Positions 1 through 20,704 of a stretch of DNA of 22,044 nucleotides are shown piece after piece. The notes under the pieces are model-generated. The model did not search any database, was not told where the DNA came from, and saw only the letters and a program-made list of their open reading frames with translations. Numbering within the stretch: the stretch's first letter is position 1; each line of letters opens with the position of its first letter. The position numbers and the translations under genes were made by a program. Source of the DNA: a virus; the IMG/VR virus record IMGVR_UViG_3300007519_000090, positions 1 through 22,044 of that record; one strand, written 5' to 3'.

Positions 1-2
1 CT

Positions 3-149
3 GCGCTAGCAGTGTTGGTCGGACTCGACCTAGAACTGGTCGCCGACATGGATGGGCAATCCATCCACGAAGCGATCGGAGTCAGGGTGCACGACCTGAT
101 GGTAGCAGCAGGATTCCCAACAACAAACAACCAAGGAGACAACAAATGA
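3..149 (+). CDS. 3' end of an unidentified gene
   Basis: An open frame enters from the left edge and ends in TGA overlapping the ATG of the next gene (ATGA). The 48 visible residues end with HDLMVAAGFPTTNNQGDNK. I do not recognise the family from this tail. The tight overlap implies co-transcription and translational coupling with the PurZ-like gene, so the upstream protein could belong to the same nucleotide-metabolism or replication module. The ribosome-binding sequence of the next gene (CAAGGAGAC, 132-140) lies inside this coding end. The partial gene itself is well supported; its function is unknown. Confidence 0.6.
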   Translation, partial: ALAVLVGLDLELVADMDGQSIHEAIGVRVHDLMVAAGFPTTNNQGDNK

Positions 150-1258
150 CCATCCACGCGATAGTCGGCGGGCAATTCGGTAGCGAAGCCAAAGGACACG
201 TCGCCGCCGAGATCACCCAACACTACGTCGACAAAGGAATCAGCAACCTGCTGGTGCGGATCGGCGGCAGCAACGCAGGACACTCAGCGGTAGACGCCGA
301 CGGGCGCACATGGGCGCTGAGGCAGATCCCAGCAGCAGCCGTCATCGACCGCAACGCGCCGCTCATCCTAGCGCAAGGCAGTGAGATCGACGTGGATGTG
401 GTGATGGCAGAACTTGACGCACTCGACGCAGCCAATTACAACGCCAGCGCACGGCTCTACATCGACCCGTCAGCCACCATCGTCGAACAACGACACCACG
501 ACCTTGAAGCAGGTAGCGACCTGAGCAAAAGAACAGGATCAACCAACAAAGGGATCGGCGCGGCGCGTGCCGACAGGCTGATGCGCAAAGCGATGACAGC
601 ACGCGACTGCCAGCCGCTAGAGCGCTGGCTCACCAACACCGCCAAGATGATCAAACGTGAACACACCGAGAACGACGTGAACGTGATCATCGAAGGCACA
701 CAGGGTTACGGACTGGGGTTGCACACAGACAACTACCCGCAAACCACCAGCGGCGACTGCCGCACCGTCGATCTGCTCGCACAGATCGGTTACGCACCGT
801 TGAACCCTGACGCCAACCGCGAGGTGCACACGTGGCTGGTGTGTCGTACCTATCCGATCCGTGTTGCTGGCAACAGCGGTGCACTGCTCGATGAACTGGA
901 ATGGTCGCAACTCACCGAACAGAGCGGCGGCTATATCCAACCTGAACTGACAACAGTGACACGCAAAACACGCAGGATCGGCGGCTGGGATGCACGGCTG
1001 GTGCGTGCCGCGATCGAAGCCAACGGCGGCACAGGCAGACACCTGCACCCGTGTCTCATGTTCATCGACTATCTCGATCCGATCCTTGCTGGTGCACGAT
1101 ACATCGAGACACTGCACGCACGGAAAACGACAGATGCAGCGATCCGCATCGCCGAGATGACCGCCGACATAGGTCAGCCATTCGACCTGTTCGGCACGTC
1201 ACCATCGACAGCGATGTTCGACCACGCCGCACTCACATCGACAATAAGCAACTGGTAA
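146..1258 (+). CDS. purZ: PurZ-like 2-aminoadenylosuccinate synthase (PurA family)
   Basis: The 370-residue protein belongs to the adenylosuccinate synthetase family. The P-loop region GGQFGSEAKG (residues 8-17) matches the PurA motif G-x-W-G-D-E-G-K-G, but the catalytic Asp is Ser13. Other PurA-family blocks are present: GGSNAGHS (about 40-47), GSTNKGIGAA (about 131-140), EGTQGYGLGLHTDNYPQTTS (about 183-202) and TRKTRRIGGWD (about 272-282). In characterised phage PurZ enzymes the lost Asp accompanies use of dGMP rather than IMP. They condense dGMP with aspartate to 2-aminodeoxyadenylosuccinate, which host PurB converts toward dZMP. The start is fixed by AAGGAG and the ATGA overlap with the preceding gene. 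The protein is shorter than bacterial PurA (about 430), like phage and archaeal forms. The family is certain; the Z-specific activity is inferred from the Ser. The alternative is a phage PurA acting on IMP. Confidence 0.88.
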   Translation: MTIHAIVGGQFGSEAKGHVAAEITQHYVDKGISNLLVRIGGSNAGHSAVDADGRTWALRQIPAAAVIDRNAPLILAQGSEIDVDVVMAELDALDAANYNASARLYIDPSATIVEQRHHDLEAGSDLSKRTGSTNKGIGAARADRLMRKAMTARDCQPLERWLTNTAKMIKREHTENDVNVIIEGTQGYGLGLHTDNYPQTTSGDCRTVDLLAQIGYAPLNPDANREVHTWLVCRTYPIRVAGNSGALLDELEWSQLTEQSGGYIQPELTTVTRKTRRIGGWDARLVRAAIEANGGTGRHLHPCLMFIDYLDPILAGARYIETLHARKTTDAAIRIAEMTADIGQPFDLFGTSPSTAMFDHAALTSTISNW

Positions 1259-1270
1259 AGGAGAAATACC

Positions 1271-1606
1271 ATGATAGGCACAAGGGCAAAAAACAAACTG
1301 CGCGGTTGGTGGCTCGACAGCGCCACCAACGAGATCGACGGGATGATGGACAAACTCGCCGAGTACGGCACAGGTGACCTGCACGAAATCGGCAGGCAGA
1401 TGTTGAAGATAAAAGGCGCGTATGACAGTGAGACAACCGACCAGCAGTGTTACGAGATCGGTATCACGTTCTACGCACTGGGCAAAATCCAGCGGATCAT
1501 CACAGCCGCAGAACAAGACAAACTCGCATCGACCGACACATGGCATGATCTCGCGATCTACGCCAAGATGGTGCTCGCAGGTCGTGCAGAAGTGATGCCA
1601 AAATGA
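1271..1606 (+). CDS. Small helical protein, possibly Nmad1/MazG-like
   Basis: A 111-residue protein starts 12 nt after the purZ stop behind a strong AAAGGAG. Its C-terminal half reads QQCYEIGITFYALGKIQRI, then a short linker and DTWHDLAIYAKM. This layout (a helix with Glu and Lys/Arg, then an Asp-rich helix ending in a Tyr) resembles the all-alpha nucleotide pyrophosphohydrolase-like and Nmad1 (DUF1599) proteins and recurs in small actinophage proteins of unknown function. A clear ExxE...ExxD MazG metal motif is not visible, so the call is tentative. Next to purZ, a MazZ-type dGTP-to-dGMP pyrophosphohydrolase would supply the PurZ substrate, but that is inference from position. It overlaps the next gene by ATGA. 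Confidence 0.45.
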   Translation: MIGTRAKNKLRGWWLDSATNEIDGMMDKLAEYGTGDLHEIGRQMLKIKGAYDSETTDQQCYEIGITFYALGKIQRIITAAEQDKLASTDTWHDLAIYAKMVLAGRAEVMPK

Positions 1607-1809
1607 ACAACGGCATCGACGCAGTGAACTACTGCTACGGCAAGACACTATACATCAACCAACTGGTGTTGTGCCAACGACGTGCAAACCTGAACGGCAC
1701 AACAGAACTGGTGCTGTGGATGGACAAACCGAATGGCAGGATCATCGAAGAGACAACACTGACACCCGACACTGACAGCACACTACCGAGGAACACGACA
1801 TGGCGATGA
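1603..1809 (+). CDS. Small hypothetical protein
   Basis: A 68-residue protein starts at the ATG overlapping the previous stop and ends inside the next gene (10-nt overlap), so it is a coupled member of the purZ operon. It has a beta-type pattern (LVLWMDKPNGRIIEETTLTP) and two cysteines. No membrane segment or known motif is visible. The role is unknown. Confidence 0.6.
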   Translation: MNNGIDAVNYCYGKTLYINQLVLCQRRANLNGTTELVLWMDKPNGRIIEETTLTPDTDSTLPRNTTWR

Positions 1810-2657
1810 TATATTTTGCACACCCGATCGACCACAGCAACAGCGTGCACAACGCGGTCGCCGACAGGATCAGGCACGCGCTCACCGAGCAGACCGACGT
1901 CGCGATCTTCGAACCGTCACGTGCGTGGATCGTCACGAAACCGTATAGTCCTGCGATTCAAGCAGTCAATGAACAAGCGCTGCACGCAGCCGACACCGTC
2001 ATCGCCTACATGCCCAGCGATGTGCACACACGCGGTGTGCCACTGGAAATCGGGATCGCACTAGGGCGCGGTATCCCGATCGTGCTGATCGTAGATCACG
2101 AATTTGGCAAACACTCAGCGGTCGAAGCGAACCTGATGGATCGCACTGACGTCGATGCGTTCAGTGTCGACTTCTGCAAAGTGGCGGCGTGGCGTGCCGC
2201 TTCGCTGGCACGGCTGCAAGACACAGACCAACGTGCAGTGGCTAAATACACAGGCGACACTAACCAACTGCAACAAGCACACGACGGCGACGCAGGTTAT
2301 GACCTAGCCTACAACGGTACAGAGCCGATGCAGATCGCAGCAGGTGCACGGGTCGCGATACCGACAGGTGTCAGCGTCGAGATGCCCGCAGGTTATTTCT
2401 CGCTGATCGTTGGCAGATCATCGTCATTCAGCAGACGCGACCTGCTAGTGCCGCTGTCGGTGATCGACGCAGGTTTCCGAGGTGAACTGTTCGCAGTGTG
2501 CTGGAACTACGGCACACAGACACAAGAAATCCAACCACGTGAACGGATCGCACAAGTGCTACCGATGCGACTGGAAGCAGCCAACATCCGTTGGATCAAC
2601 GCACCACTGACCGACAGCGCACGTGGCACTGACGGATTCGGATCGAGCGGTCGCTAA
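1800..2657 (+). CDS. Deoxyribosyltransferase-like domain fused to dUTPase
   Basis: This 285-residue protein has two domains. Residues 1 to about 130 resemble the nucleoside 2-deoxyribosyltransferase/DNPH1 fold: MIYFAHPID at the start, an Asp near 65 in AADTVIAY, and VPLEIGIALGRGIPIVLI with a candidate nucleophile Glu83. Residues about 150-285 are a trimeric-type dUTPase with all five motifs: DAGYDL (164-169), GRSSS (205-209), VIDAGFRGEL (221-230, catalytic Asp about 223), RIAQVLP (249-255) and GTDGFGSSG (276-284). The dUTPase part converts dUTP to dUMP and PPi. The N-terminal part may cleave or exchange the base of a deoxynucleotide. The Shine-Dalgarno is GAGG about 9 nt before ATG. It is the last gene before the terminator-like hairpins and lies in the purZ operon. 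The dUTPase is firm; the N-terminal activity is by fold resemblance. Confidence 0.85.
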   Translation: MAMIYFAHPIDHSNSVHNAVADRIRHALTEQTDVAIFEPSRAWIVTKPYSPAIQAVNEQALHAADTVIAYMPSDVHTRGVPLEIGIALGRGIPIVLIVDHEFGKHSAVEANLMDRTDVDAFSVDFCKVAAWRAASLARLQDTDQRAVAKYTGDTNQLQQAHDGDAGYDLAYNGTEPMQIAAGARVAIPTGVSVEMPAGYFSLIVGRSSSFSRRDLLVPLSVIDAGFRGELFAVCWNYGTQTQEIQPRERIAQVLPMRLEAANIRWINAPLTDSARGTDGFGSSGR

Positions 2658-2663
2658 GATGTC

Positions 2664-2736: not shown

Positions 2737-2765
2737 TCGATTTCCACAACCCCGTTACACCTAAC

Positions 2766-2774: not shown

Positions 2775-2780
2775 AACAAC

Positions 2781-4229
2781 ATGACATCACCAAAACTGGC
2801 AACAACCACCAACAACGGCAGAATGTACACACACCCGACCACAGGCAAACAATACCCGTCGGTCACCACCGTGCTGAACGTCGTCGGCAAAGGCGACGCA
2901 CTCAAACACTGGGCAGCGAAAATCGTCGCCACCTACGCAGTCGAACAAAAAGACACATGGCTACAACTCGACAATGAAGCAGCGATCGACCTGCTTAAAC
3001 GTGAACCGATGCGGTCACTCGACCGTGCATCGAACCGAGGTACAGACGTGCACGCCATCGCCGAAAGTTACTCACGCACAGGCACACTACCAGTGTGGGC
3101 TGACGCACTCGGCGGCTACATCGAAGCGTTACAGTCGTTCTTCACAGAACACCAGCCGCAACCAATGATGATCGAACAGACAGTGTTCAACGACGAGATC
3201 GGCTATGCAGGTTCATTCGACATGGTGTGCCGACTGCCCGCATTCGGTGACGCGTTGGTGATCCTAGACTACAAAACCAGCAAAGCGATCTACCCTGAAG
3301 TAGGTGCGCAACTCGCTGCATACGCACACGCGACCGAATGCATTGATGACACAGGGAGAGACACACCGATGCCCAAGATCGATCGCGGTGTCGCCGTCAG
3401 GTTCGCAGCCGACGGCATCTATGAAGTGATCGAGTGTGACATCGTCAAAGGCTGGGAGTATTTTAAACAGGTGCGCGGTCTGCACCGACTGGTCGCAAAA
3501 GAACTGATCATCGGCAAAGTGCTGACACCGCAAATCGACCCGACCGAATCGGCGACAAAAAAAACCGCACTACGTGAACGGCTCGCACACATCAAAACGA
3601 CATCACCAGCCGCAGTGACCGCACTGCTGGCAGCGTGGTCACCAGCGATGCCGACGTTGAAATCCGACCACCAACACACCACACATCAACTGGCAGAAAT
3701 CGAGAAACTACTGAACAGGATCGAGGGCGACCACAGCGTGTCGTTCCCACAACTGACAGTGAAACGACCACCAGCACGCAAAACCAAAACACCCGTCGAA
3801 GTGGCGAAACTGCCATCCGAGACGCTGCTGGTCGATGCGGTCACCGTAGACGCGCTACGCGAACGGCTCAAAAACACCGACGTGAAGACACAAGAAACAG
3901 CACGCGCTATCGCGAGACAAGCGGCGGCAGTGCAACGTTCGATCTCACTCAGCGGCAAACCATCACTGCGCCGTCTGCTGTTGATCGAGTTCATGATCGA
4001 AGCGATAGAAGAATCAGAAGGCACAGACCAACTGATCGACGTCATCATCCAACACTGCAGGCTCGACCAACCGAACACCACCATCGGCGCGATCCTAGGC
4101 AATTTAGATCTCGATCAGATCACCAAGATGTCCACAGCGTTAACACATTTCCGTGAAGGCGCTGCGGCAGTTACATACAACGGCAACACAAACACATACA
4201 CCTACAACACGAAAGAAGCAACAACATGA
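2781..4229 (+). CDS. Cas4/RecB-like PD-(D/E)XK exonuclease with long C-terminal extension
   Basis: This 482-residue protein carries the RecB/Cas4-type nuclease signature: NRGTDVH with His about 91, a Glu in MMIEQTVF (about 132), GYAGSFDMV with Asp about 147, LDYKTSK with Asp about 163 and Lys about 165, and QLAAYA (about 177-182). The family degrades or processes DNA ends during recombination and replication. It lacks the four Cys of iron-sulfur Cas4 enzymes. The nuclease domain ends near 270. Residues about 280-482 form a charged, helical extension with no domain I recognise. It opens the operon after the hairpins and overlaps the SSB-like gene by ATGA, which suggests joint work on single-stranded ends. 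An AAAAAAAA run at 3557-3564 lies in frame. Confidence 0.8.
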   Translation: MTSPKLATTTNNGRMYTHPTTGKQYPSVTTVLNVVGKGDALKHWAAKIVATYAVEQKDTWLQLDNEAAIDLLKREPMRSLDRASNRGTDVHAIAESYSRTGTLPVWADALGGYIEALQSFFTEHQPQPMMIEQTVFNDEIGYAGSFDMVCRLPAFGDALVILDYKTSKAIYPEVGAQLAAYAHATECIDDTGRDTPMPKIDRGVAVRFAADGIYEVIECDIVKGWEYFKQVRGLHRLVAKELIIGKVLTPQIDPTESATKKTALRERLAHIKTTSPAAVTALLAAWSPAMPTLKSDHQHTTHQLAEIEKLLNRIEGDHSVSFPQLTVKRPPARKTKTPVEVAKLPSETLLVDAVTVDALRERLKNTDVKTQETARAIARQAAAVQRSISLSGKPSLRRLLLIEFMIEAIEESEGTDQLIDVIIQHCRLDQPNTTIGAILGNLDLDQITKMSTALTHFREGAAAVTYNGNTNTYTYNTKEATT

Positions 4230-4576: not shown

Positions 4577-4579
4577 CCG

Positions 4580-5008
4580 ATGTCCGATTTCCCATCACTG
4601 GTCGATTCGACCGATGGTTGGATGTACGATGCCGAATGTCGCGGCACTGGATTCCTTGACTTTTTCCCTGACACGATGAGTCAAGCCAGTGCCGCGCGTG
4701 CGGTCGCCATGTGCAACCGCTGTCCAGTACAAACCGAATGTGCGCAGTATGCGATCATCAATAGCATCGAATACGGTATCTACGGCGGTCTGTCGCCACG
4801 TGCACGACGTGAGATCGCATCATCGACAACCGACCGTGAAAGGACACACGAAACGGAAACATACAACTGGTACACGCACTACAAGAACGCAGGGAGGACA
4901 GACCCAGTGCAAGCGACATCGAAACAACTGGGGATCTCAACTGCGACCGTCTACCACCACGTGCGCATCATCAAATTCGCCACACTACTGCAAAAGAGAC
5001 AGAAATGA
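4580..5008 (+). CDS. WhiB-family iron-sulfur regulator with C-terminal HTH-like tail
   Basis: The 142-residue protein has the WhiB cysteine pattern C20-x24-C45-x2-C48-x5-C54, which binds a [4Fe-4S] cluster, followed by the GIYGG turn (66-70) and an Arg-rich LSPRARRE. WhiB proteins bind the principal sigma factor region 4 and alter promoter choice; phage copies can dominate the host homologue. Unlike the usual short WhiB, the C-terminal part (about 85-142) contains TSKQLGISTATVYHHVRI, which looks like a helix-turn-helix of the kind seen in recombinase or sigma-like tails. It is found essentially only in actinobacteria and their phages, so it anchors the host inference. The start is 3 nt after the preceding stop without a clear Shine-Dalgarno, so translation is probably coupled. 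Confidence 0.88.
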   Translation: MSDFPSLVDSTDGWMYDAECRGTGFLDFFPDTMSQASAARAVAMCNRCPVQTECAQYAIINSIEYGIYGGLSPRARREIASSTTDRERTHETETYNWYTHYKNAGRTDPVQATSKQLGISTATVYHHVRIIKFATLLQKRQK

Positions 5009-6203: not shown

Positions 6204-6328
6204 CCGACGTTGCGACACTGCTGCTGGCGTTCATCATCGGCGCATCACTATGGGAGATCAGCCCACTGCTGGCGGCTATCGTTGTGCTCGGCTGGCTCTA
6301 CACACAAAGGGATCGCCGTGCGTGGTAG
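6200..6328 (+). CDS. Small single-pass membrane protein
   Basis: A 42-residue protein starts at the ATGA overlap. Its hydrophobic stretch (TLLLAFIIGASLWEISPLLA and on through IVVLGW) spans one long or two short membrane segments, ending in a basic tail (YTQRDRRAW). It lies between the Cys-rich pair and the resolvase-like gene. Function unknown. Confidence 0.5.
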   Translation: MTDVATLLLAFIIGASLWEISPLLAAIVVLGWLYTQRDRRAW

Positions 6329-6331
6329 ACT
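6323..6331 (+). promoter_or_regulatory. Possible extended -10 (TGG-TAGACT), leaderless spacing
   Basis: TAGACT (6326-6331) is preceded by TGG and is followed after 5 nt by ATG 6337. Transcription would start at or next to the ATG. A clear -35 is absent. Confidence 0.35.
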
Positions 6332-6336
6332 GCCGT

Positions 6337-6663
6337 ATGGCGAACCGCAACAAAGCGAAAGGCGACCGCGCCGAACGGGAACTCGCCACACTGCTCACCG
6401 ACCTGCTGCGCACACCGATCAGGCGTTACCTTGGTGCGGGCAGGATCGACGACATCGGCGACCTAGACGGGATGCCCAACTGCGCCATCCAAGTCAAACA
6501 CTGGCGCGACATCACCGCTGCGATCACCACTGGAATCACCCAACTGGCGCAGCAACAGAGAAACGCGAACAAACCGAACGGCGTGCTCATGATCAAACAC
6601 GCCAAACACGGATGGCTAGCGGTGACAACGCTAGAACAATGGACTAAAACACAACAACAATAA
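6337..6663 (+). CDS. PD-(D/E)XK nuclease, Holliday-junction-resolvase-like
   Basis: A 108-residue protein opening MANRNKAKGDRAERELATLL, then GAGRIDDIGDLDGMP and CAIQVKHW. Glu in the first helix, Asp in DIGDLDG and Q-x-K in IQVK form the PD-(D/E)XK arrangement of Hjc-like resolvases and related phage nucleases. The likely role is cutting branched replication or recombination intermediates. Two starts are possible. ATG 6337 lies 5 nt after a -10-like box and has no good Shine-Dalgarno. GTG 6322 follows AAGGGA at a usable distance and would add five residues. I prefer ATG because the conserved block begins there. The primase-helicase follows after 9 nt. Confidence 0.7.
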   Translation: MANRNKAKGDRAERELATLLTDLLRTPIRRYLGAGRIDDIGDLDGMPNCAIQVKHWRDITAAITTGITQLAQQQRNANKPNGVLMIKHAKHGWLAVTTLEQWTKTQQQ

Positions 6664-6672
6664 GGACACCAC

Positions 6673-8709
6673 ATGGACAACCTGACGGCACAAAACGAGA
6701 ACCTGACGCTCGACTGGGCGCTACACTACGCCGCACACGGCTACCGAGTCATCCCGATCAAACCGCGAGAGAAACGACCACCGATGGCGTCGTGGCAAGA
6801 CGTCGCCACCACCGAAACAGGCACGATCACCGCATGGTGGAGAGGCAACTACACCGATCACGGGATCGGGATCGTCACAGGTACACTCGACGACGGCACA
6901 CGCTACTTCGTACTGGACATCGACGAACACGACCCCGCAGCCAGCGGCAAAGCCACCATCGACCGACTGGAACAGGAACATGGCACACTGCCCGACACCA
7001 TCACCGCACGGACAGGTAGCGGCGGCATCCACCGACTGTACCAACTAGCCGACCACCACCGCGACATCGGCAACGGCGCAGGCAGGCTACTAGGTGCGGG
7101 TATCGACGTGCGTGCCATCAACGCGCAGATCGTGGTCGCACCGACGACCCACCCGAACGGCAGGCTCTACGAGTGGGTAACCGATCACGCCATCGGGGAG
7201 ATCGACATGGCGACAGCACCCGACTGGCTCGTTTCTTTGCTGACCCCCGTCGATGTGCCACGGGAGATCTCTAGCGCAAAGGAAAGGCTCGGAGACACCA
7301 AGGAGATACCGTCGGACACCACCACCGACACCCGTGCGGGCACACGGTTCAACCGAGAGACAACATGGGATGACCTGCTCGCCGCCGACGGCTGGACACC
7401 ACACGGTGCGACAGGCGCAGGACACACATGGACTAGACCGAACAAACACCCACGTGACGGCGCGAGCGCCACCGTCAACTACAACGATAACGATCGACTG
7501 ACCGTGTTCACCACCAGCATCACCAACCTGCCAGCAGGTACATACGACCGATTCGGATATTGGACACAGACACGCCACAGCGGAGACTTCAGCGACGCCG
7601 CACGACAGTTGAACGCACACAGCGACCAACAGATCGACAGTTGGGTACGATCGATCCAAAACGACGCGCCACCACTGATCGCCACACCGACAGAACAAAC
7701 CGACACCGACCCACTTGGCACGTGGTACGTCGACTGGACATCGCTGTGGGATGACGACACACCACAAGGTGAATGGCTACTCGAACCAATACTGGCACGC
7801 GGTCGCGCCCACGCACTATACGCCAGCGCCAAAAGCGGTAAAAGCCTGCTGCTGCTTGAACTGGCTGCAGCGTTAGCGACAGGACGTGCCGTGCTCAACC
7901 AACCAGCACGCGACCCGATCCCCGTGCTATATGTCGACTACGAGATGACAGCAGCCGACATCCGCGACCGACTGGAAGCATTCGGCTACGACCGCACCAT
8001 CGACCTGACCAGCCTGCACTATGTGCTACTGCCGTCGATCGCAGGACTGGACACACCCGAAGGTGCGAAAACCGTCATCGCAGCAGTCAAACAAAAAAAC
8101 ATCCAACTCGTCGTGATCGACACCACCGCTAGGGCGGTCGAAGGAGAAGAAAACACCGCCGACACCTACCGCGCTTTCTACCGTTGGACAGGTGTCAACC
8201 TGAAAGCACTCGGCTGCACATGGATCAGGCTCGACCATGCAGGGAAAGACAAAGAACGTGGACAACGCGGTAGCAGCAGCAAAAACGACGACGTCGATTT
8301 AGTGTGGCGGTTCACCAAACGCAACACGACATCGATCCTGCTCGAAGCCACACATAAACGCATGAATTGGGTAACCGACAAGATCGAACTGGAACTGCGT
8401 GAACACGACGGCGTGCTCATGCACACGATCGTCGGCGGTGACCAAGTGAGCGAAGCCGCCACCCAACTCGCCGCACAACTCGACCGACTTGGCGCACCAG
8501 CCGATATCGCCAACCGTGTCGCACGCCAACTGTTGAAAGACAACGGGATCAAAGCCGCCAGCGACATCCTACGTTCGGCACTACGGCTACGCAAAACACG
8601 GATCGCAGGTGGCGCGGTCGAAGCATGGCTCGACACGATCGAAAAAACAACCACGACAAAAACCAGCACACTACCACAGCGGCTACCCTACAATGATGAC
8701 CTGTTCTAG
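6673..8709 (+). CDS. Primase-polymerase / RepA-like helicase fusion
   Basis: The 678-residue protein joins an N-terminal archaeo-eukaryotic primase/polymerase domain to a RecA-fold ATPase. The first part has YRVIPIKPREKRPPMASWQD, GIGIVTGT, the metal-binding LDID (81-84) and TGSGGIHRLY (about 114-123). The second has Walker A ASAKSGKS (about 382-389), YVDYEM (about 419) and Walker B LVVIDTT (about 477), plus a helicase-type DHAGKDKERGQRGSSSKNDD loop. It would prime and unwind DNA at the phage origin. A linker (about 200-350) separates the domains. The start follows AAGGACACC. The putative origin region lies immediately downstream, as expected for an initiator/helicase next to its site. Confidence 0.88.
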   Translation: MDNLTAQNENLTLDWALHYAAHGYRVIPIKPREKRPPMASWQDVATTETGTITAWWRGNYTDHGIGIVTGTLDDGTRYFVLDIDEHDPAASGKATIDRLEQEHGTLPDTITARTGSGGIHRLYQLADHHRDIGNGAGRLLGAGIDVRAINAQIVVAPTTHPNGRLYEWVTDHAIGEIDMATAPDWLVSLLTPVDVPREISSAKERLGDTKEIPSDTTTDTRAGTRFNRETTWDDLLAADGWTPHGATGAGHTWTRPNKHPRDGASATVNYNDNDRLTVFTTSITNLPAGTYDRFGYWTQTRHSGDFSDAARQLNAHSDQQIDSWVRSIQNDAPPLIATPTEQTDTDPLGTWYVDWTSLWDDDTPQGEWLLEPILARGRAHALYASAKSGKSLLLLELAAALATGRAVLNQPARDPIPVLYVDYEMTAADIRDRLEAFGYDRTIDLTSLHYVLLPSIAGLDTPEGAKTVIAAVKQKNIQLVVIDTTARAVEGEENTADTYRAFYRWTGVNLKALGCTWIRLDHAGKDKERGQRGSSSKNDDVDLVWRFTKRNTTSILLEATHKRMNWVTDKIELELREHDGVLMHTIVGGDQVSEAATQLAAQLDRLGAPADIANRVARQLLKDNGIKAASDILRSALRLRKTRIAGGAVEAWLDTIEKTTTTKTSTLPQRLPYNDDLF

Positions 8710-11923: not shown

Positions 11924-12127
11924 GAGGTATTCTTTTCTGCCGATGGACATATCTAAGAACCCTTGTGCAGGCTTTCTTTCATATCCTTGGGGATCGGCTA
12001 CCGTCTAGACACGTGTCCGATGTGGTTTCCTTGCCCTTTCCGAGGCTTTCCCTTGCATCGCGGGCGTGGTCAGGCTATGTCGGTGGGTCTGTGTTTTGTG
12101 GCGCAAGGGAAGGCACACGGGTGCGCC
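11924..12127. other. Non-coding gap before terminase, candidate packaging site or genome end
   Basis: No good gene lies here. The + strand has pyrimidine-rich patches (CTTTCTTTC near 11972, TTTCCTTGCCCTTTCC near 12026-12041, CTTTCCCTTGC near 12046-12056). AGGCTTTC occurs twice. Two palindromes overlap: GTCTAGAC (12003-12010) and GACACGTGTC (12008-12017). It also marks the change from A/C-rich to G/T-rich + strand. No consensus promoter is clear, though the late operon needs one nearby. Confidence 0.45.
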
Positions 12128-12667
12128 ATGCCGACTGCTAGAACTGGTACGGGTCGCGGGGCGAAGTCGCAGCCGATCGAGTTGCAGCGGGCGCGGGGGA
12201 ATCCGAACCACAAGAAACTGCCGCCAGCGCCGATGCCCGATTCACCGAATGCGGTTATTGTCTATGCTGGCGATATCCCGCCGACACCTGAGTGGTGCGA
12301 TGAGCATGGTGCACGTTTGTGGGTGCAGTTGTGGAATGCGGGTAGCCGATACCTGTCGAAAGGACATGATCTGCTGATGATGGAGTTGCTTGTGGAGAAG
12401 TTGCAGACGAGCCAGTTGTTGCGTGCGTGGCTTGGCACAGATGTGCGTAACCGTTGGTACACGACTGCGAATGGGCAGACGGTGTCGCATCCTGCGGTGA
12501 AGCAACTTGAAAATGCCGATGGGCAGATCACGGCGTGGTTGGTTTTGCTTGGTTTCCCTGTCAGTGAGCGGGCGCGGCTTGGTTTGTTCGAGGTGAGGGT
12601 CGCGGATGAACTCGATTCATATCGCCAACGTAGCGATGCACGTGCCGCTAAAGACAGCAAGAAGTAG
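12128..12667 (+). CDS. Terminase small subunit (P27-like)
   Basis: A 179-residue protein. The start ATG 12128 (MPTARTGTGRGAKSQP) is preferred over upstream TTG or ATG codons because the P27-type pattern RARGNPNHKKLP follows at about 20-31 and because AAGGGAAGG lies upstream. The middle is helical (WVQLWNAGSRYLSKGHDLLM) and the C-terminus basic. The small terminase recognises phage DNA and recruits the large subunit. Placement 2 nt before the large terminase and after an HNH gene supports this. Confidence 0.8.
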   Translation: MPTARTGTGRGAKSQPIELQRARGNPNHKKLPPAPMPDSPNAVIVYAGDIPPTPEWCDEHGARLWVQLWNAGSRYLSKGHDLLMMELLVEKLQTSQLLRAWLGTDVRNRWYTTANGQTVSHPAVKQLENADGQITAWLVLLGFPVSERARLGLFEVRVADELDSYRQRSDARAAKDSKK

Positions 12668-12669
12668 CC

Positions 12670-14142
12670 GTGTCTAGCGCTGTGGTTGTTGCGGGTTCGC
12701 CGACGTGGGCGACCAAGCGGTTCACTGGCAACCCTGATGGTGCGGATGTGATCGATTTCGCCCGTACGTTCATGCACGTCACTAAGGGGTTGCGTGCTGG
12801 TGAGCCGTTGGTGTTCACTGACTGGCAGCAGGATCTATTGCATTCGCTGTATGAGCGTCGCGTGGATGGGCGTCGTCGTCACCGTCGCGGGTTGCTTGGT
12901 TTGCCACGCAAGGATGGCAAGTCGTTGATCGGGTCGGCGATCGCGTTACATGGGTTGGTCGAGGGTGGTTTAGGTGCGGAGGTGTATGCGGCTGCGGGTG
13001 ACCGTCAGCAGGCTCGTATCGTGTTCGGTGAGGCACGTCTGCAGGTGATGCGCAGTTCTGCGTTGTCGGCGATCTGCAAGGTGTACCGCGATGTGATCGA
13101 GATCCCTGCGACTGGGTCGATCTTCCGTGTGTTGTCAAGTGATGCGAAGTTGCAGCAAGGACTGTCGCCGTCGACGGTGGTGTTAGATGAGTTGCATGTG
13201 CAGCCGAATGCAGATTTGTATGATGCGCTAACTTTGGGATCGGGTGCGCGTGTCGATCCGTTGACGGTTGCGATCACAACAGCAGGCTATGATCTAGAAT
13301 CACTGTGTGGCAAGATGTATCAGTATGGCAAGAGTGTCGCTGCTGGTGATGTGGTCGATGATGCTTTTTGGTTTCATTGGTGGGAAGCCGCAGCCGACTG
13401 CGCGCTGAATGACCGTGATGAGTGGTATCGGGCGAATCCGAACCTAGCGCTCGGTTTGATCGATATCGAGGACATGGAGACCGCTGCGAAGCAGACCAGT
13501 GAGAGCGCGTTTAGGCGTTACCGTTTGAACCAGTGGACTAGGTCGTTGGAGTCATGGCTTCCTGTTGGTGCGTTCGAGGCGTGTAGGTCGGCGCGTGAGG
13601 TGTCGTTCGATCTGCCGATCTATGTGGGTATTGACATGGCGTTGAAGCATGACTCGATCGCGGTGGTGGTGGCGCAGCCGCAGGATGGTGTGTTGGTTGT
13701 CCGTGCGAAGATTTGGCATCCGCAGGATGCGCCGTTGGATGTCGCTGCGGTCGAGGCACATTTGCGTTGGTTGCATCGTACTTACGAGGTGCGCGAGTTC
13801 GCTTACGATCCTGCCTATTTCCAGCGTAGCGCGGAGATCTTAGCGGATGACGGGTTGCCGATGGTGGAGTTCCCGCAGAACGCTGGGCGGATGATCCCTG
13901 CGTGTGGCAATGCGTTTGAGTTGATCGTGAACCAGCGTGTCGCACATGATGGGTCGCCGATGTTCGTGGATCAGGTGTTGTCGGCGGCGCAGCGGATGAC
14001 TGACAACGGTTGGCGGCTGTCGAAAGGGCGCAGCAAGCGCAAGATCGACGCGGCAATTGCACTAGTGATGGCGTTGGATCGTGCTACACTTGTCCTTAAA
14101 TCGGGTGATACGCCGTCGATCATAGATGTGTGGAAGGATTGA
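12670..14142 (+). CDS. Terminase large subunit
   Basis: The 490-residue protein starts at GTG 12670 behind AAGAAG. It has an N-terminal ATPase with Walker A-like LPRKDGKS (78-85) and Walker B TVVLDEL (169-175, Glu about 174). The C-terminal RNase H-like nuclease has GIDMALKHD (about 319-327) and KIDAAIALVMA (about 457-467) carrying metal-binding Asp residues. It powers DNA translocation into the prohead and cuts the concatemer. The length is typical of HK97-type phages. Confidence 0.93.
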   Translation: MSSAVVVAGSPTWATKRFTGNPDGADVIDFARTFMHVTKGLRAGEPLVFTDWQQDLLHSLYERRVDGRRRHRRGLLGLPRKDGKSLIGSAIALHGLVEGGLGAEVYAAAGDRQQARIVFGEARLQVMRSSALSAICKVYRDVIEIPATGSIFRVLSSDAKLQQGLSPSTVVLDELHVQPNADLYDALTLGSGARVDPLTVAITTAGYDLESLCGKMYQYGKSVAAGDVVDDAFWFHWWEAAADCALNDRDEWYRANPNLALGLIDIEDMETAAKQTSESAFRRYRLNQWTRSLESWLPVGAFEACRSAREVSFDLPIYVGIDMALKHDSIAVVVAQPQDGVLVVRAKIWHPQDAPLDVAAVEAHLRWLHRTYEVREFAYDPAYFQRSAEILADDGLPMVEFPQNAGRMIPACGNAFELIVNQRVAHDGSPMFVDQVLSAAQRMTDNGWRLSKGRSKRKIDAAIALVMALDRATLVLKSGDTPSIIDVWKD

Positions 14143-14147
14143 ACAGA

Positions 14148-14282
14148 ATGCGTGAGCGGTTGACGATGGCTATCGAGGTTATCGGTTTCGCGTTGATCGT
14201 GGTCGGTGTCGCGTTGATCTCTGTGCCGATCGGCGTGATGGTCGCTGGTGTTGCGTTGGTGGCGATCGGTGAGTTTGCATGA
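14148..14282 (+). CDS. 44-residue membrane protein
   Basis: A small gene between the large terminase (5-nt gap) and portal (ATGA overlap), with AAGGA upstream. After MRERLT the protein is almost entirely hydrophobic, with two likely membrane segments (about 8-25 and 27-41). No known function; position inside the packaging operon is its only clue. Confidence 0.55.
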   Translation: MRERLTMAIEVIGFALIVVGVALISVPIGVMVAGVALVAIGEFA

Positions 14283-15475
14283 GCCTGTTTAGAGAGAAGC
14301 GTGCACTGCCGTACACGATAGATCCGAATCAGATAACGGCACGACCGTATTACCCTAACTATTCTGGTGAGTTGGTCAACGAAACCAATGCATTCGCGTC
14401 GTCGGCTGTGTTGTCGTGCGTGTCGTTGATCGCCGATTCGGTGGCGACTATGCCGTTGGAGTTGACACGGGAACGCAATGGTCGTTTTGAGTCGATGCCG
14501 ACACCTAGCGTGTTGATCAAGCCGAACGCGACACAGTCGATGTTTGAGTTCGTCCATGAGGTGGTTGCGACGTTGGCGTTGCACGGTTGCGCCTACATTT
14601 ACGCACCGCGTCGCGCTGGTGAGTTGCCTGTAGAGATGCGAGCGATCCATCCGCACAGTGTGGTTGATGGTTACGATCCTGCGACTGGCGAATTATACTA
14701 CAAGATCGGGAAAGACCGCTATGAGAATGGCGATATCCGCGCCATCCATTGGTTGTTGTTGGCTGGTCAGCGTCGTGGTGTGTCACCGTTGGAAGCGCAA
14801 CGCAACACGATCGGGATGGCGTTGGCGATGGATCGTTTCTTGTCGCAGTTCTATGGTGAAGGTGCGACACCGTCGTCGGTGTTAGAGTCGGACAAACCTG
14901 TGACGCTTGAACAGGCGCAGGTATTGCGCGAAACTTGGGAAGAAGCACACAACAAACGGCGTCGTCCTGCGGTGCTGAGCAACGGGTTGAAGTGGCGTTC
15001 GATCACGACGAGCGCGTCTGACATGCAGATGATCGAGCACCGTGAGTCGGTGATCCGTGACATCGCACGCGTTTACCGTGTGCCGTTGAATCTGATCTCT
15101 GGCACTGGCGGCGATTCGCAGACCTATCAGAATGTCGAGTCGATGGGCATCAACTTCGTGCGTTTTACGTTGTTGGCGTGGATGCGTCGCGTCGAGGATG
15201 CGATCTCGGAGATGTTGCCGATCACGCAGCGTGTGCGGTTCAACGCCGACGAGTTTTTGCGTGCCGATCTGATCACACGTGTGCGTGCACAACAGATCCA
15301 GATCATGAATGGCACATTGACACCGAACGAGGCACGCGCCGATGATGACCGCGATCCGTATGCTGGTGGCGACCAATTCATCATCGGGATCGCTGGTGCG
15401 CCGATGTCATCGCTAACTGGTGGTGTCGACAGCAAATTGCCTACGCTCGGCGTAGATACGTCGCCACCCGAATGA
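14279..15475 (+). CDS. HK97-type portal protein
   Basis: The 398-residue protein carries HK97 portal hallmarks: SCVSLIADSVATMPLELTRE near the start (about 47-66), FVHEVVATLALHGCAYIY, MRAIHPHSV, GVSPLEAQRNTIGMALAMDR, and YRVPLNLISGTGGDSQTYQN (about 264-283) before the C-terminal crown helices. The portal forms the dodecameric DNA channel at one capsid vertex. Gene order terminase-portal-protease-capsid is standard. The C-terminal end is Gly/Pro-rich and probably disordered. Confidence 0.92.
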   Translation: MSLFREKRALPYTIDPNQITARPYYPNYSGELVNETNAFASSAVLSCVSLIADSVATMPLELTRERNGRFESMPTPSVLIKPNATQSMFEFVHEVVATLALHGCAYIYAPRRAGELPVEMRAIHPHSVVDGYDPATGELYYKIGKDRYENGDIRAIHWLLLAGQRRGVSPLEAQRNTIGMALAMDRFLSQFYGEGATPSSVLESDKPVTLEQAQVLRETWEEAHNKRRRPAVLSNGLKWRSITTSASDMQMIEHRESVIRDIARVYRVPLNLISGTGGDSQTYQNVESMGINFVRFTLLAWMRRVEDAISEMLPITQRVRFNADEFLRADLITRVRAQQIQIMNGTLTPNEARADDDRDPYAGGDQFIIGIAGAPMSSLTGGVDSKLPTLGVDTSPPE

Positions 15476-15487
15476 CAGGAGACTGCG

Positions 15488-16375
15488 ATGCCATATGGGA
15501 TCAGTGATCAAGAGAACGACTGTGCAGGCTGGGCGGCGGTGAAGGTACATGCGGATGGCAATTACGAGACGATCGGTTGCCATACGGTGAAACAAGATGC
15601 GATCGATCAGATGGTCGCGGTGTCGCTTGTCGATGGGATCGACCCGATCGGAGATGTCAACACAGGGATGCGTGCGATCGACGGATGCACCGATGTTGGT
15701 CTGTCGTCAGATACTGGAATGCGTGCGACGTCGACAAACGTGTACACTGTGAACAACATGGCAACCGATATAGCACCTGTCCAATGGGTAAGCGGCTTAC
15801 TAGACGAACGTCGCAGTGTCGCATACACTAATCTTGAACTGCGCGCCACCGACGACGGCAATACCTTCGTCGGCTACGCCGCGATCTTCGACTCGCCATC
15901 TGAGCCGATGCCGTTCACGGAGTACGTCAAACGCGGTGCGTTTGCAAAGACCTTGAATGATGGCGCGGATGTACGGCTGTTGATCGACCATGAAGGTGTG
16001 CCGCTGGCACGCACACGGTCAGGCACGTTGGTTCTTGAGGAAGACGATCGTGGGTTGCGTGTCGAAGCCGCATTAGATCCGTCGAACCCCGATGCGCAGC
16101 GTGTCATCTCGGCGATGCGACGCGGCGACTTGTCGCAGATGTCGTTCGCGTTTCGCACGATCAAAGATTCTTGGAACAATGACGGCAGTGTTCGCGAGTT
16201 GCGCGAGGTGCAGTTGTTTGATGTCAGCGTGGTGACCTATCCAGCCTACGAGGACACGGTAGCCGAACTGCGTCGCGCGCAGGCTGTTGATGTTGTCGAT
16301 GTCGTTGTACCGTTCAAGTCGTTGCTTTTGCGCACGAACCAGTTGGCGCTTGCACGCTACGCACGCCAACGTTAA
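15488..16375 (+). CDS. Capsid maturation protease (S78-like) with N-terminal extra domain
   Basis: The 295-residue protein starts behind ACAGGAGACTGCG. The protease domain begins near residue 105 (RRSVAYTNLELRATDDGNTF) and has FVGYAAIFDSPSEPMPFTEY, LLIDHEGVPLART with catalytic His about 168, and MRRGDLSQMSFAFR with catalytic Ser about 220. It cleaves the capsid scaffold/delta domain during prohead maturation. The N-terminal 90 residues are not part of S78: DCAGWAAVKVHADGNYETIG, then CHTVKQDAIDQMVAV looks like a small separate domain with two Cys. An in-frame ATG at 15758 would give a protease of about 205 residues, the usual family size. Confidence 0.85.
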   Translation: MPYGISDQENDCAGWAAVKVHADGNYETIGCHTVKQDAIDQMVAVSLVDGIDPIGDVNTGMRAIDGCTDVGLSSDTGMRATSTNVYTVNNMATDIAPVQWVSGLLDERRSVAYTNLELRATDDGNTFVGYAAIFDSPSEPMPFTEYVKRGAFAKTLNDGADVRLLIDHEGVPLARTRSGTLVLEEDDRGLRVEAALDPSNPDAQRVISAMRRGDLSQMSFAFRTIKDSWNNDGSVRELREVQLFDVSVVTYPAYEDTVAELRRAQAVDVVDVVVPFKSLLLRTNQLALARYARQR

Positions 16376-16407
16376 CCACCTATTGCAGCGGCACGCCGCA
16401 CACGGTC

Positions 16408-16416
16408 TGCTATGGT
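16408..16416 (+). promoter_or_regulatory. Possible extended -10 (TGC-TATGGT) before capsid gene
   Basis: In the 137-bp gap before the capsid gene, TATGGT (16411-16416) is preceded by TGC. The nearest -35-like TTGCAG (16383) is 22 bp away, too far, so only the extended -10 is supported. It would give the capsid gene its own strong transcript with a leader of about 90 nt. Nothing else was seen in this gap. Confidence 0.35.
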
Positions 16417-16512
16417 TTATTCACTGACAGCCGAACACCAGCCGACCATATAGGTCACTGGGGGAAGTTCACTCGCGGGATAACAACAACAACGAGTCAA
16501 GGAGTCCACCAA

Positions 16513-17808
16513 ATGAGGAAATACACCGACCAACTCAGCGAGAAGCGCGATGCCGCGCTTGCCCATGCTGAGCAGATCACACAGATTGCGATCACTGAGG
16601 AACGCGATTTGACGAAAGATGAAGACACAGCCGTTGCGACGGTACTTGATGAAGTGCGTGAGTTGGATGAGCAGATCACACGCCACGCTGAACTTGAAGC
16701 ACGTGCAGCAGCCGCTGTTGAAGTGCGCAAAGAGAAGCATGTCGATGTCGCTACAGTGGTCAAATCTGAACCGCGTACCTACACCCGCCAGTCTAGCAAC
16801 AATTTCCTAGCCGACGCGTACGCTTCGCAGTTCCAAGCCGATGCTGACGCATCGCAGCGCATCACGCGCCACATGACTGAGGAACGGATCGAACGTCGTG
16901 CAGTAGGCACAGGTGCTTTCGCGGGTCTTGTAGTTCCGCAGTACCTCACCGATCTCGCCGCGCCTTTGGCTCGTGCTGGTCGCCCATACGCTGACATCAT
17001 GCGCAAGCATCCGCTTCCAGATTCAGGGATGACTTTGAACATCAGCAAGGTCACGACTGGTTCAAGCACCGCAGCACAGAGCGAGAACGCTGGCGTGTCT
17101 GAAACCAACATGGATGACACGCTGTTGACACTGAATGTGTTTACCGTTGCAGGTCAGCAAACAGTGTCGCGTCAAGCGATCGATCGTGGCACTGGCATCG
17201 ACCAGATCGTCATGGAAGATCTGGTGCGCTCATATCACACCACACTCGACGCCGCTACGGTCGCCGATCTCACTTCTGTTGCGGGGATCACCGTGTCTTA
17301 CACCGACGCAAACCCAACTGTTGCCGAGATGTACCCGAAAGTTGCAGACGCAGTGCAGCAAATACAAACTGCTTACTTCGGCAACCCCGATTACATCCTG
17401 ATGCATCCACGTCGTCTAGCGTTTCTCTTGGCGGCAGTAGATGGACAGAGCCGACCACTTGCAGTGCCAACACCATACGCGATGAACGCAGTCGCGACAG
17501 GCAACGGCAGCGCGATCTACGGCAACAGCGGGTATCAGATGATGGGCTTGCCAATTATCACTGACGCGAATGTTCTTACGAACACAGGCGTAGGCACGAA
17601 TCAAGACACCATCTACATCGGCGTTTCTTCAGAAGCGCACTTGTGGGAAGCAGCCAATTCGCCGCTGATGTTACGATTCGACCAGACATCTGCAGCGTCG
17701 TTGGGTATTCTAGTGGTCGTGTTCGGGTACAACACCTACACACACAACCGCTATCCGAACGCGTTCGCCAAGATCACTGGCACAGGTTTGGTGGCGCCAG
17801 CCTTCTAA
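16513..17808 (+). CDS. Major capsid protein, HK97 fold
   Basis: The 431-residue protein starts behind CAAGGAGTCCACCAA. Residues 1 to about 80 are a charged coiled-coil delta/scaffold domain (KRDAALAHAEQITQ, AVATVLDEVRELDEQITRHA). The mature part follows: GAFAGLVVPQYLTDLAAPLA (N-arm/E-loop side), a core with TLNISKVTTGSS, YFGNPDYILMHPRRLAFL (P-domain helix), GLPIITDANV, and a C-terminus with LGILVVVFGYNTYTHNRYP. The capsid protease gene lies directly upstream and should cleave the delta domain. A hairpin terminator follows. Confidence 0.92.
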   Translation: MRKYTDQLSEKRDAALAHAEQITQIAITEERDLTKDEDTAVATVLDEVRELDEQITRHAELEARAAAAVEVRKEKHVDVATVVKSEPRTYTRQSSNNFLADAYASQFQADADASQRITRHMTEERIERRAVGTGAFAGLVVPQYLTDLAAPLARAGRPYADIMRKHPLPDSGMTLNISKVTTGSSTAAQSENAGVSETNMDDTLLTLNVFTVAGQQTVSRQAIDRGTGIDQIVMEDLVRSYHTTLDAATVADLTSVAGITVSYTDANPTVAEMYPKVADAVQQIQTAYFGNPDYILMHPRRLAFLLAAVDGQSRPLAVPTPYAMNAVATGNGSAIYGNSGYQMMGLPIITDANVLTNTGVGTNQDTIYIGVSSEAHLWEAANSPLMLRFDQTSAASLGILVVVFGYNTYTHNRYPNAFAKITGTGLVAPAF

Positions 17809-17831
17809 TCCTGACTAGATGACGGGATCGA

Positions 17832-17856
17832 CGTCGCCAGTGTCAGGCTGGCGACG
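17832..17856 (+). terminator. Hairpin after capsid gene
   Basis: CGTCGCCAG (17832-17840) pairs perfectly with CTGGCGACG (17848-17856) across a 7-nt loop. There is no T-run. It may be a partial terminator that lets less transcript into the connector and tail genes. Confidence 0.6.
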
Positions 17857-17882
17857 CCGACCACCAATTGAAAGAAGCGCGC

Positions 17883-18086
17883 ATGAATCCAAACATTGAG
17901 AGCCTACTGAGAGAACGCGCAGGATACGAACGGCGTGGTCTTGTTGAACGTGTTAAAGCCGTCGACGCCGAACTGCGCGAACTCGACTTCGATCACAAAT
18001 ACATGACTAGGCAAGATGAAACGGCAGCAGTTCAGCCACCTGCAGAACGCGCTACACGCGTCAAACCACAAAAACGCAGGCAGTAG
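17883..18086 (+). CDS. Small charged protein after capsid gene
   Basis: A 67-residue protein from ATG 17883 (MNPNIESLLRERAGYERRGL) with GAAAGAAG upstream; a TTG start 15 nt earlier is less likely. The first half is helical, rich in Arg and Glu (AVDAELRELDFDH); the tail is basic (KPQKRRQ). Similar short proteins of unknown role sit between capsid and connector genes in many actinophages. The stop TAG overlaps the GTG of the connector gene. Confidence 0.6.
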   Translation: MNPNIESLLRERAGYERRGLVERVKAVDAELRELDFDHKYMTRQDETAAVQPPAERATRVKPQKRRQ

Positions 18087-18691
18087 TGGCGATCGTCAAC
18101 GGCTACTGCACATTGGCGCAAGCCAAAGCCGCGCTGCGGATCGCAGACAGCACAGACGACACGCTGCTTGAAAACGCGATCACAAGTGCATCACGGCGCA
18201 TTGATGGTTATTGTGGTCGGTTCTTCTATCAAACCGCGTCATCTGTGGTGGCGATGAACCCGTATAGCCTTTATCTACTCACGTTCCCTGCTGACGTTTC
18301 TAGTGGCACGGGGTTGGTTATCAAAACTGACACCGCTGGAGATGGCACATACGCTACGACATTGGTGTTGAACACTGATTACATACTCACGCCGACTGAT
18401 GCGGCGTTGCAGTCGCGACCTTACCGCAATGCGTATATCGTCGGCAGCGAGACGTTTCCGTTGCCTGTGTTGCAGGCTGTGCCGCCGATACAAGTAACCG
18501 CGCTGTGGGGATGGGCGGCAGTGCCTGCCGACGTCGAACAGGCTTGTGTGCTATTGTCGATCCGTCAATTTGCACGTCTGAACGCCGCACTCGGTGTGGT
18601 CGGTTTCGCAGATATGGCGATAACGGTTCGCGCTGTCGATCCAGATGTGCGTGATCTGTTGTCACCTTATGTCGAGTTTGGTGTTGCCTGA
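18086..18691 (+). CDS. Head-tail connector (gp6-like adaptor)
   Basis: The 201-residue protein starts at GTG 18086, overlapping the previous stop by one base. The N-terminus LAQAKAALRIADSTDDTLLE, then NAITSASRRIDGYCGRFF is the helical pattern of HK97 gp6-like head-tail adaptors that bind below the portal. The middle is beta-rich (VIKTDTAGDGTY, DYILTPTDA) and ends with VTALWGWAAVPADVEQACVL. The next gene overlaps by TGATG. The adaptor call is strong from sequence and order. Confidence 0.75.
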   Translation: MAIVNGYCTLAQAKAALRIADSTDDTLLENAITSASRRIDGYCGRFFYQTASSVVAMNPYSLYLLTFPADVSSGTGLVIKTDTAGDGTYATTLVLNTDYILTPTDAALQSRPYRNAYIVGSETFPLPVLQAVPPIQVTALWGWAAVPADVEQACVLLSIRQFARLNAALGVVGFADMAITVRAVDPDVRDLLSPYVEFGVA

Positions 18692-19098
18692 TGGCGGCTA
18701 CAGTCGGCGCGATCGCCGCAGGTTTGAAAACTGCGTTGTCGACCGTATCGGGTTTGCGTACTTTCGCATCACAACCCGACTCATTACAGCCGCCAGTTGG
18801 CTACCCTGTTCTGAACTCGATTAGTTACCACCGTGCGATGGGTGGTGGCAATGTCACCACAGAGTGGTCGATCGTTGTGATCGTTGGCAGGTACACCGAT
18901 GATCGGGCATTCGCCGATTTGGACAATTACCTGTCTTATAGTGGCAGCAAGTCTATCCGCGCAGCAGTCGAAGCAGATCCAACGCTTGGTGGTATCGTTA
19001 GCACGCTACTGCTGCCGACTGGTGCACGTATCCAACCAGAGACCCAAGCAGACGCCGAGTTTCTTGCGGTGCGCTTTGAGTGCACGGTACACGGTTGA
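18691..19098 (+). CDS. Tail terminator / tail completion protein
   Basis: A 135-residue protein with VGAIAAGLKTALSTVSGLRT at the start, PPVGYPVLNSISYHRAMGGG, then TEWSIVVIVGRYTDDRAFAD and ADAEFLAVRFECTVHG at the end. This alpha-beta plan (helix, beta sheet with W-x-I-x-V, helix, final strand) fits tail terminator proteins that cap the tail tube and join it to the head. Position between connector and major tail protein agrees. A separate stopper gene is not evident. Confidence 0.65.
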   Translation: MAATVGAIAAGLKTALSTVSGLRTFASQPDSLQPPVGYPVLNSISYHRAMGGGNVTTEWSIVVIVGRYTDDRAFADLDNYLSYSGSKSIRAAVEADPTLGGIVSTLLLPTGARIQPETQADAEFLAVRFECTVHG

Positions 19099-19121
19099 AC
19101 GACCCGAACATGCGGAAGGTG

Positions 19122-19127
19122 TAGGCT
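19122..19127 (+). promoter_or_regulatory. Possible -10 (TAGGCT), leaderless spacing
   Basis: TAGGCT lies 6 nt ahead of ATG 19134, and the gene has no Shine-Dalgarno at a usable distance. TTGAAC (19095) is 21 bp upstream of the box, longer than usual. Confidence 0.3.
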
Positions 19128-19133
19128 AAAAAC

Positions 19134-19301
19134 ATGACGACTTACAAAGTGACAAGTGACCGATTAGCGGATCACAAACTCGGCGACATCGTCACCGATG
19201 ACGCGCTTGCCAATGTGAACATCGACGCGTTGATCGAAGGCGGACACATCAAACCGCAGGCAAGTATAAAACCAGTAGACAAACTAGATAACAAGGAGTA
19301 G
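19134..19301 (+). CDS. 55-residue hypothetical protein
   Basis: A small protein, MTTYKVTSDRLADHKLGDIV, followed by ALIEGGHIKPQ and a Lys-rich end. The short Lys/Asp pattern is like small actinophage proteins preceding the tail tube gene. The stop lies 6 nt before the tail protein start, and the AAGGAG used by the next gene is within its last codons. Function unknown. Confidence 0.55.
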   Translation: MTTYKVTSDRLADHKLGDIVTDDALANVNIDALIEGGHIKPQASIKPVDKLDNKE

Positions 19302-19307
19302 AGAACA

Positions 19308-19715
19308 ATGGCTATATTCGTACTAACAGACGCCGTGATCACCGTGAATGCGGTGGAACTAAGTAACAGGTCGAACAAGGTGGAACTCAATTTCGAGATC
19401 GACAGTGTCGAAGTCACCGCGATGGGTGCTGTCGGTCATGTGTTCGCTGGTGGTTTGCAGAACAATTCGTGCGCGGTCGATCTCTTCCAAGATTTCGCTA
19501 CGTCGAACGTTGAAGCAACCATCTACCCGTTGGTCGGTACGACTACCAGTGTCACGGTGAAAGCCACATCAGCCGCCACATCAGCGACTAATCCGCTTTA
19601 CACTTTGAGCGGTACGTTTTTGGCGGCTCACACGCCCGTATCAGGCTCGACTGGTGACGTTGCGATGACGTCGCTATCGTTCACTGGCGGCACACTTGTG
19701 AAAACGACTGCATAA
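19308..19715 (+). CDS. Major tail protein
   Basis: A 135-residue protein starting behind AAGGAGTAGAGAACA. Beta-rich with the tail-tube pattern: VNAVELSNRSNKVELNFEID, then SVEVTAMG, a Gly turn (FAGGLQNNSCAVDLFQDF), VEATIYPLVGTTTSVTVKA, and a final TLSGTFLAAHTPV...GDVAMTSLSFTGGTL. It forms the hexameric tube of the siphovirus tail. It is short but complete, followed directly by the chaperone genes, which is diagnostic order. Confidence 0.85.
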   Translation: MAIFVLTDAVITVNAVELSNRSNKVELNFEIDSVEVTAMGAVGHVFAGGLQNNSCAVDLFQDFATSNVEATIYPLVGTTTSVTVKATSAATSATNPLYTLSGTFLAAHTPVSGSTGDVAMTSLSFTGGTLVKTTA

Positions 19716-19721
19716 ACTGAC

Positions 19722-20149: not shown

Positions 20150-20152
20150 CCG

Positions 20153-20701: not shown

Positions 20702-20704
20702 CAC

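Follow-up and report, generated by a model that had tools for sequence, protein, structure and literature searches.

A PurZ0 phage lineage with no detected DpoZ that probably builds 2-aminoadenine DNA through control of the nucleotide pool

Base Z (2-aminoadenine) stands in for adenine in phage DNA. The closest described counterparts of the locus analyzed here are the PurZ0 clusters of Arthrobacter phage Wayne and Gordonia phage Ghobes, the S-2L pathway, and that of Vibrio phage phiVC8, which combines PurZ, DatZ, MazZ-2 and DpoZ. Among NCBI PurZ0 genomes, dutZ is linked to PurZ0 in all 98 and dmtZ usually is; the Wayne DmtZ-DutZ fusion hydrolyzes dATP and dGTP, and converts dAMP to adenine or, with the Z base, to dZMP, and residues Y6, D12, P57, N77 and E103 of Ghobes DmtZ have been biochemically characterized (PMC12884076). 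S-2L has only a PrimPol, which uses dATP and dZTP alike, and removal of dATP by DatZ is needed (PMC8065100); its three pool genes by themselves are enough to introduce Z into E. coli DNA (PMC8342488). Published work links PurZ0 to the Z-selective polymerase DpoZ-1, with S-2L as the exception.

We investigated a 22,044-base stretch of DNA (the window), which is an IMG/VR record in full and represents a genome fragment: comparison with the relative G005 shows that ~10 kb located between the tape measure gene and purZ in that genome are missing. The window resembles the Wayne and Ghobes clusters (PMC12884076) in encoding a PurZ0 with Ser, in gene order and in the catalytic residues of DmtZ-DutZ, which are fused as in Wayne. 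It differs in PurZ sequence (38–39% identity), in lacking DUF5664, in that no DpoZ was found in its clade, and in carrying a small protein (1271-1606, after its coordinates) that is absent from Wayne and in Ghobes forms the C-terminus of gp51. The window clade shares with S-2L (PMC8342488, PMC8065100) the lack of DpoZ, a PrimPol as the only polymerase candidate and a selectivity that likely comes from removing dATP, but S-2L employs PurZ rather than PurZ0, along with DatZ and MazZ-1, and its PrimPol has no PF09250 match, hence belongs to a different AEP family. phiVC8 likewise has a Ser-type PurA homologue in its Z pathway, but its PurZ comes from a distant clade (29.5% identity, GSTGKG P-loop), its other pool enzymes differ, and DpoZ is present. 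Drawing on tree placement, retained active-site residues, gene order and the absence of family A, B and C polymerases from relatives, all observed directly, we consider it likely that the window comes from an uncultured siphovirus-like phage that makes dZTP and copies its DNA without DpoZ by emptying the dATP pool. Its genome is probably built with base Z, and the activities of all the pool enzymes it encodes are those predicted from their sequences.

Table 1. Features of the window, all on the plus strand
Coordinates	Strand	Feature	Remarks
3..149	+	Truncated upstream gene, C-terminal 48 codons	TGA overlaps purZ ATG (ATGA, 146-149)
146..1258	+	purZ0, predicted 2-amino-adenylosuccinate synthetase	ATG start, 370 aa, Ser13 replaces catalytic Asp
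1271..1606	+	Unnamed all-helical protein, purZ0 neighbor	111 aa, directly downstream of purZ0
1603..1809	+	Small ORF, 68 aa	Overlaps both neighbors; kept only in closest relatives, 43–59% to G001, G005, G006
1800..2657	+	dmtZ-dutZ fusion	N-terminal deoxyribosyltransferase (dAMP hydrolase/transferase type), C-terminal dUTPase-fold (dATP/dGTP pyrophosphatase type), both predicted
2781..4229	+	PD-(D/E)XK exonuclease (recombination)	Pfam, PHROG
4580..5008	+	WhiB-family regulator	Pfam, PHROG; kept in relatives
6250..6663	+	RusA-like Holliday junction resolvase	PHROG 2.8e-16
6673..8709	+	PrimPol (AEP primase-polymerase, PF09250) fused to AAA_25 helicase	Only DNA-polymerase candidate of the window clade; AEP domain at 6673-7362
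11963..14142	+	Terminase small and large subunits	Both ends of relatives' contigs fall shortly before this locus
14279..22044	+	Portal, head protease, HK97-type major capsid, head-tail adaptor, major tail protein, tape measure	Tape measure cut by window end

An earlier note on this DNA had reported that Ser replaces the catalytic Asp in the P-loop of a PurA-like protein, a reading that alignment with E. coli PurA confirmed: the window sequence GGQFGSEAKGH (G9-Q-F-G-S13-E-A-K-G17) stands against GTQWGDEGKGK, with Ser13 aligned to catalytic Asp13. The protein matches Pfam Adenylsucc_synt (7e-34), PHROG 1211, '2-aminooxy adenylosuccinate synthetase' (4e-71), and NCBIfam PurZ (3.5e-85; 285.8 bits, slightly below the curated cut-off of 300), whereas every NCBIfam PurA model scored far under its own cut-off. 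The closest solved structure is 7VF6 (7e-69), the PurZ0 of Gordonia phage Archimedes (PMC12884076). Annotated phages are all below 60% identity, the top ones being Streptomyces phage Galactica (42%) and Archimedes (42%), followed by Microbacterium phage Theresita (40%) and, lower down, Wayne (39%). A scan of viral contigs with the single window sequence gave no matches; a profile search recovered the relatives.

In a maximum-likelihood tree of 86 proteins, comprising known PurZ0 and PurZ, IMG/VR relatives, chromosomal Ser-type homologues and E. coli PurA, the window protein fell not with PurA but inside the phage PurZ0 clade with Wayne and Ghobes (support 100/99), in an 11-row subclade (100/98). 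The PurZ proteins of S-2L, phiVC8 and SH-Ab 15497 formed a group separate from PurZ0. The long branch of E. coli PurA makes the deep order of the tree uncertain but leaves the nesting of the window protein unaffected. The proposal that this is a phage PurZ is supported by these results and, through the tree and the DmtZ-DutZ partners, refined to PurZ0. The S-2L residues S23, N49, A50, T132, R146, Q190, R240 and V241 of the dGMP pocket (PMC8342488 numbering) are all matched in the window, as are the T273-T276 tip (TTVT) and the PIRVAGNSG insertion. In S-2L PurZ, the pocket residues hold dGMP and exclude ribose (PMC8342488), and given the conserved pocket, the window PurZ0 would be expected to use dGMP. 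Asp stands at the ATP-base position (S-2L Q308) in the window protein, as it does in E. coli PurA and in every PurZ0 examined, which hints that PurZ0 perhaps does not handle ATP the way S-2L PurZ does.

Loss of the catalytic Asp, taken in the earlier note as the hallmark of PurZ, turned out to be necessary but insufficient, since many bacterial contigs carry Ser-type PurA outside phage clusters. Homologues turned up on 371 contigs when GTDB genomes were scanned with a profile; most of the 80 contigs fetched are chromosomal and encode a protein of ~348 aa with GSEGKGK and without the DmtZ/DutZ cluster, and full-length canonical PurA is also present in 13/13 genomes tested. These chromosomal proteins (L173-L251) resemble the window PurZ0 in Ser13, the PIRVA-NSG insertion and the TTVT tip, but they form separate tree branches, coexist with canonical PurA and lie in a different operon, with an RNase H/kinase protein and a dCTP deaminase-like protein. 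Because of these paralogues, Ser at position 13 is not diagnostic, and tree placement and gene neighbors carry the argument. The chromosomal operon, seen at L173:6064-10123 and ~60 more loci (L174-L251), consists of an RNase_H_2 + DUF429 + AAA-kinase-like protein, the Ser-type PurA and a dCTP-deaminase/dUTPase-like protein, its flanking genes being common to 63 and 65 of 78 loci. PADLOC has no named system for it, and it may represent a cellular modified-nucleotide or defense system.

The description of purZ as the first complete gene of a nucleotide-pool operon also stands: its ATG overlaps the stop codon of the truncated gene, which shows no similarity to the upstream genes of known PurZ0 phages, and its downstream neighbors are predicted pool genes. 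The order PurZ0 - 1271-1606 family - DmtZ - DutZ is kept in most of 80 IMG/VR relatives. In the fusion protein, Pfam detects a nucleoside deoxyribosyltransferase (PF05014, 7e-7) N-terminally and a dUTPase (PF00692, 1e-18) C-terminally, the same architecture as in Wayne. The catalytic Tyr6, Asp12, Asn77 and Glu103 of Ghobes DmtZ, plus Pro57, are all kept. The lid residue modeled for DmtZ, Trp124, is not, being Ala in the window and Ala, Leu, Ile or Val across its clade; as this position varies widely among PurZ0 phages generally and was not among the DmtZ residues mutated in PMC12884076, we do not treat it as defining DmtZ. The DutZ domain carries the GRSS and VIDAGF (VIDxGF/YRGEL) motifs of Z-phage DutZ and groups with those proteins in a tree where canonical phage dUTPases cluster apart, but three divergent Z-phage rows adjoin the latter, so that the DutZ clade is not clean.

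The earlier note had named datZ and mazZ as genes to look for; DatZ, MazZ and DUF5664 are absent from the window, and datZ and mazZ are also absent from nine relative contigs. Because the enzyme is PurZ0, the partners to seek are DmtZ and DutZ instead. At nine loci (L036, L043, L053, L055, L063, L065, L067, L068 and L082), a gene for a PurB-like adenylosuccinate lyase is inserted in the cluster between the 1271-1606 family and dmtZ, so that some PurZ0 phages apparently bring a lyase of their own for the reaction that follows PurZ. A full PurZ0 - orf2 - DmtZ - DutZ cluster with PurB also occurs on a contig of a Verrucomicrobia MAG (L172, CAIOKD010000330.1), which could be a provirus, a sign that PurZ0 phages infect a broader set of hosts, or a product of misbinning.

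The 1271-1606 protein has no convincing match in Pfam, PHROG, NCBIfam or PADLOC. Its phage homologues are Archimedes gp51 and the C-terminal regions of Galactica gp66, Parvaparticeps orf5, Theresita gp53 and Ghobes gp51, and every one of these adjoins purZ. Searching IMG/VR with this family alone yielded 72 loci, with PurZ in 71/72, on the same strand in 70 and at a median gap of 87 bases; for the sole exception (L139), only 400 bases upstream were fetched, and purZ may lie beyond. The predicted structure (pLDDT 92.8) is all-helical, with three helical elements, and the family conserves K28, E31-Y-G, E62, G71-K72, R75, D89, D93 and Y97, residues that, in our reading, resemble the three-motif layout of MazG-like pyrophosphatases. 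A Foldseek search of BFVD ranked its own family first, followed by DUF1599, DUF6378 and nucleotide-modification-associated proteins, among others, at probabilities of 0.84–0.98, yet with E > 0.1; nothing significant was found in PDB, and profile comparisons with DUF5664, one DUF6378 protein and S-2L MazZ were not significant. We lean slightly toward a MazG-like (DUF1599/DUF6378-like) dNTP pyrophosphatase that would take the place of MazZ or DUF5664, an assignment that stays a proposal because of these profile results.

Known PurZ0 phages encode PolI near purZ, just upstream of it in Wayne, Theresita and Parvaparticeps. In the subclade of the window, DNA_pol_A was found in 0/11 closest contigs and PrimPol in 10/11, and family B and C polymerases are absent from the contigs tested. 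A profile built from known DpoZ matched 0/20 relative contigs while recovering 3/3 positive controls. Two of the relatives, G005 (34,066 bases) and G006 (32,223 bases), are collinear from first to last base, with common ends that fall between the genes for an HNH protein and the small terminase subunit, and given this collinearity and both shared ends, they are probably complete linear genomes. Reading the ORFs predicted in G005 from the tape measure gene to purZ revealed no polymerase; we would assign them to tail, fiber, holin, endolysin, metallophosphoesterase-like and small unknown proteins. A second PurZ0 lineage without DpoZ and with PrimPol comprises G024 (34,098 bases) and G036 (35,464 bases), which share ends, and G025 (34,080 bases), a permutation of the same map. 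PrimPol alone was rejected as a mark of S-2L-like phages, because PolI-bearing PurZ0 phages also have it. As regards dpoZ, also raised in the earlier note, its absence holds for the window and for whole contigs of the closest relatives, the genome of the window phage being incomplete; as the window lacks ~10 kb, it is from the relatives that we infer the absence of DpoZ in this phage. The apparently DpoZ-free PurZ0 subclade is new with respect to open-access full texts, and subscription or unpublished work may already note such phages.

In the route that we propose, the DutZ domain, possibly together with the 1271-1606 protein, would convert dGTP to dGMP and dATP to dAMP; PurZ0 would join Asp and dGMP into succino-2-amino-dAMP, and host adenylosuccinate lyase and host kinases would complete dZTP. 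The DmtZ domain would break dAMP down to adenine, or transfer its deoxyribose phosphate onto free Z base, such that dATP is not rebuilt. DNA would then be copied by the phage PrimPol-helicase and/or a host polymerase without a Z-selective DpoZ, discrimination against A coming from the emptied dATP pool, that is, the logic of S-2L with unrelated pool enzymes: DmtZ-DutZ would replace DatZ, and the 1271-1606 protein perhaps MazZ. By analogy with S-2L, Z selection in the window clade probably rests on the destruction of dATP.

Three other explanations bear on this route. That 146-1258 encodes an IMP-using PurA, or merely supplies nucleotides to a phage with normal adenine in its DNA, strikes us as very improbable: the Ser-type paralogues on bacterial chromosomes do mean that Ser alone is no proof of Z synthesis, but the window protein branches within phage PurZ0, and a linked, dATP-destroying DmtZ-DutZ makes little sense if the phage needs dATP. 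It is also unlikely that the window belongs to an ordinary DpoZ-type PurZ0 phage with the DpoZ gene in the unsequenced part. In favor of this, the window starts 145 bases before purZ and would leave out a PolI gene placed as in Wayne, Theresita and Parvaparticeps, but close relatives have at least 10 kb upstream of purZ without PolI, and whole contigs of 28-35 kb, two of them probably complete, lack a family A polymerase.

Replication of the Z genome by the host DNA polymerase, with PrimPol just priming and loading the helicase, is a serious contender to which we give somewhat less than even chances. PrimPol genes also occur in PolI-bearing PurZ0 phages, and in E. coli the S-2L pool triad leads to Z in DNA made by the bacterial machinery (PMC8342488); on the other hand, phage NrS-1, as cited in PMC8065100, is replicated by a phage-encoded AEP alone, and the AEP motifs DID / SGGxH / GID are intact in the window PrimPol. 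Copying through an emptied dATP pool, without DpoZ, accommodates either enzyme.

The remaining genes form a siphovirus-like virion module (14279..22044) and an early region that includes the WhiB-family regulator at 4580-5008, which is kept in relatives and suggests an actinobacterial host. Separately, the early genes (window 1-11900) show a strong coding-strand bias of A>T and C>G, with an AT skew of +0.29 and ~8% T at third positions in purZ and PrimPol; G001, G005 and G006 likewise have an early skew of +0.30. The bias flips right where the genome likely ends, ahead of the terminase genes (11960-15500), the large terminase having 7% A and 29% T at third positions.

Overall, we regard it as reasonably probable that at least two PurZ0 lineages have dispensed with DpoZ and make Z-DNA by pool control only (PurZ0, DmtZ and DutZ as one protein or two, plus a new purZ0-linked dNTP pyrophosphatase of all-helical fold), using a non-selective PrimPol or host polymerase, in convergence with S-2L from unrelated parts. 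The conserved, unnamed purZ0 neighbor of the 1271-1606 family is a candidate new enzyme. If this reading is true, a compact gene set for Z-DNA would consist of three or four genes plus PrimPol, and a genome-wide base swap would have been enforced by metabolism alone more than once.
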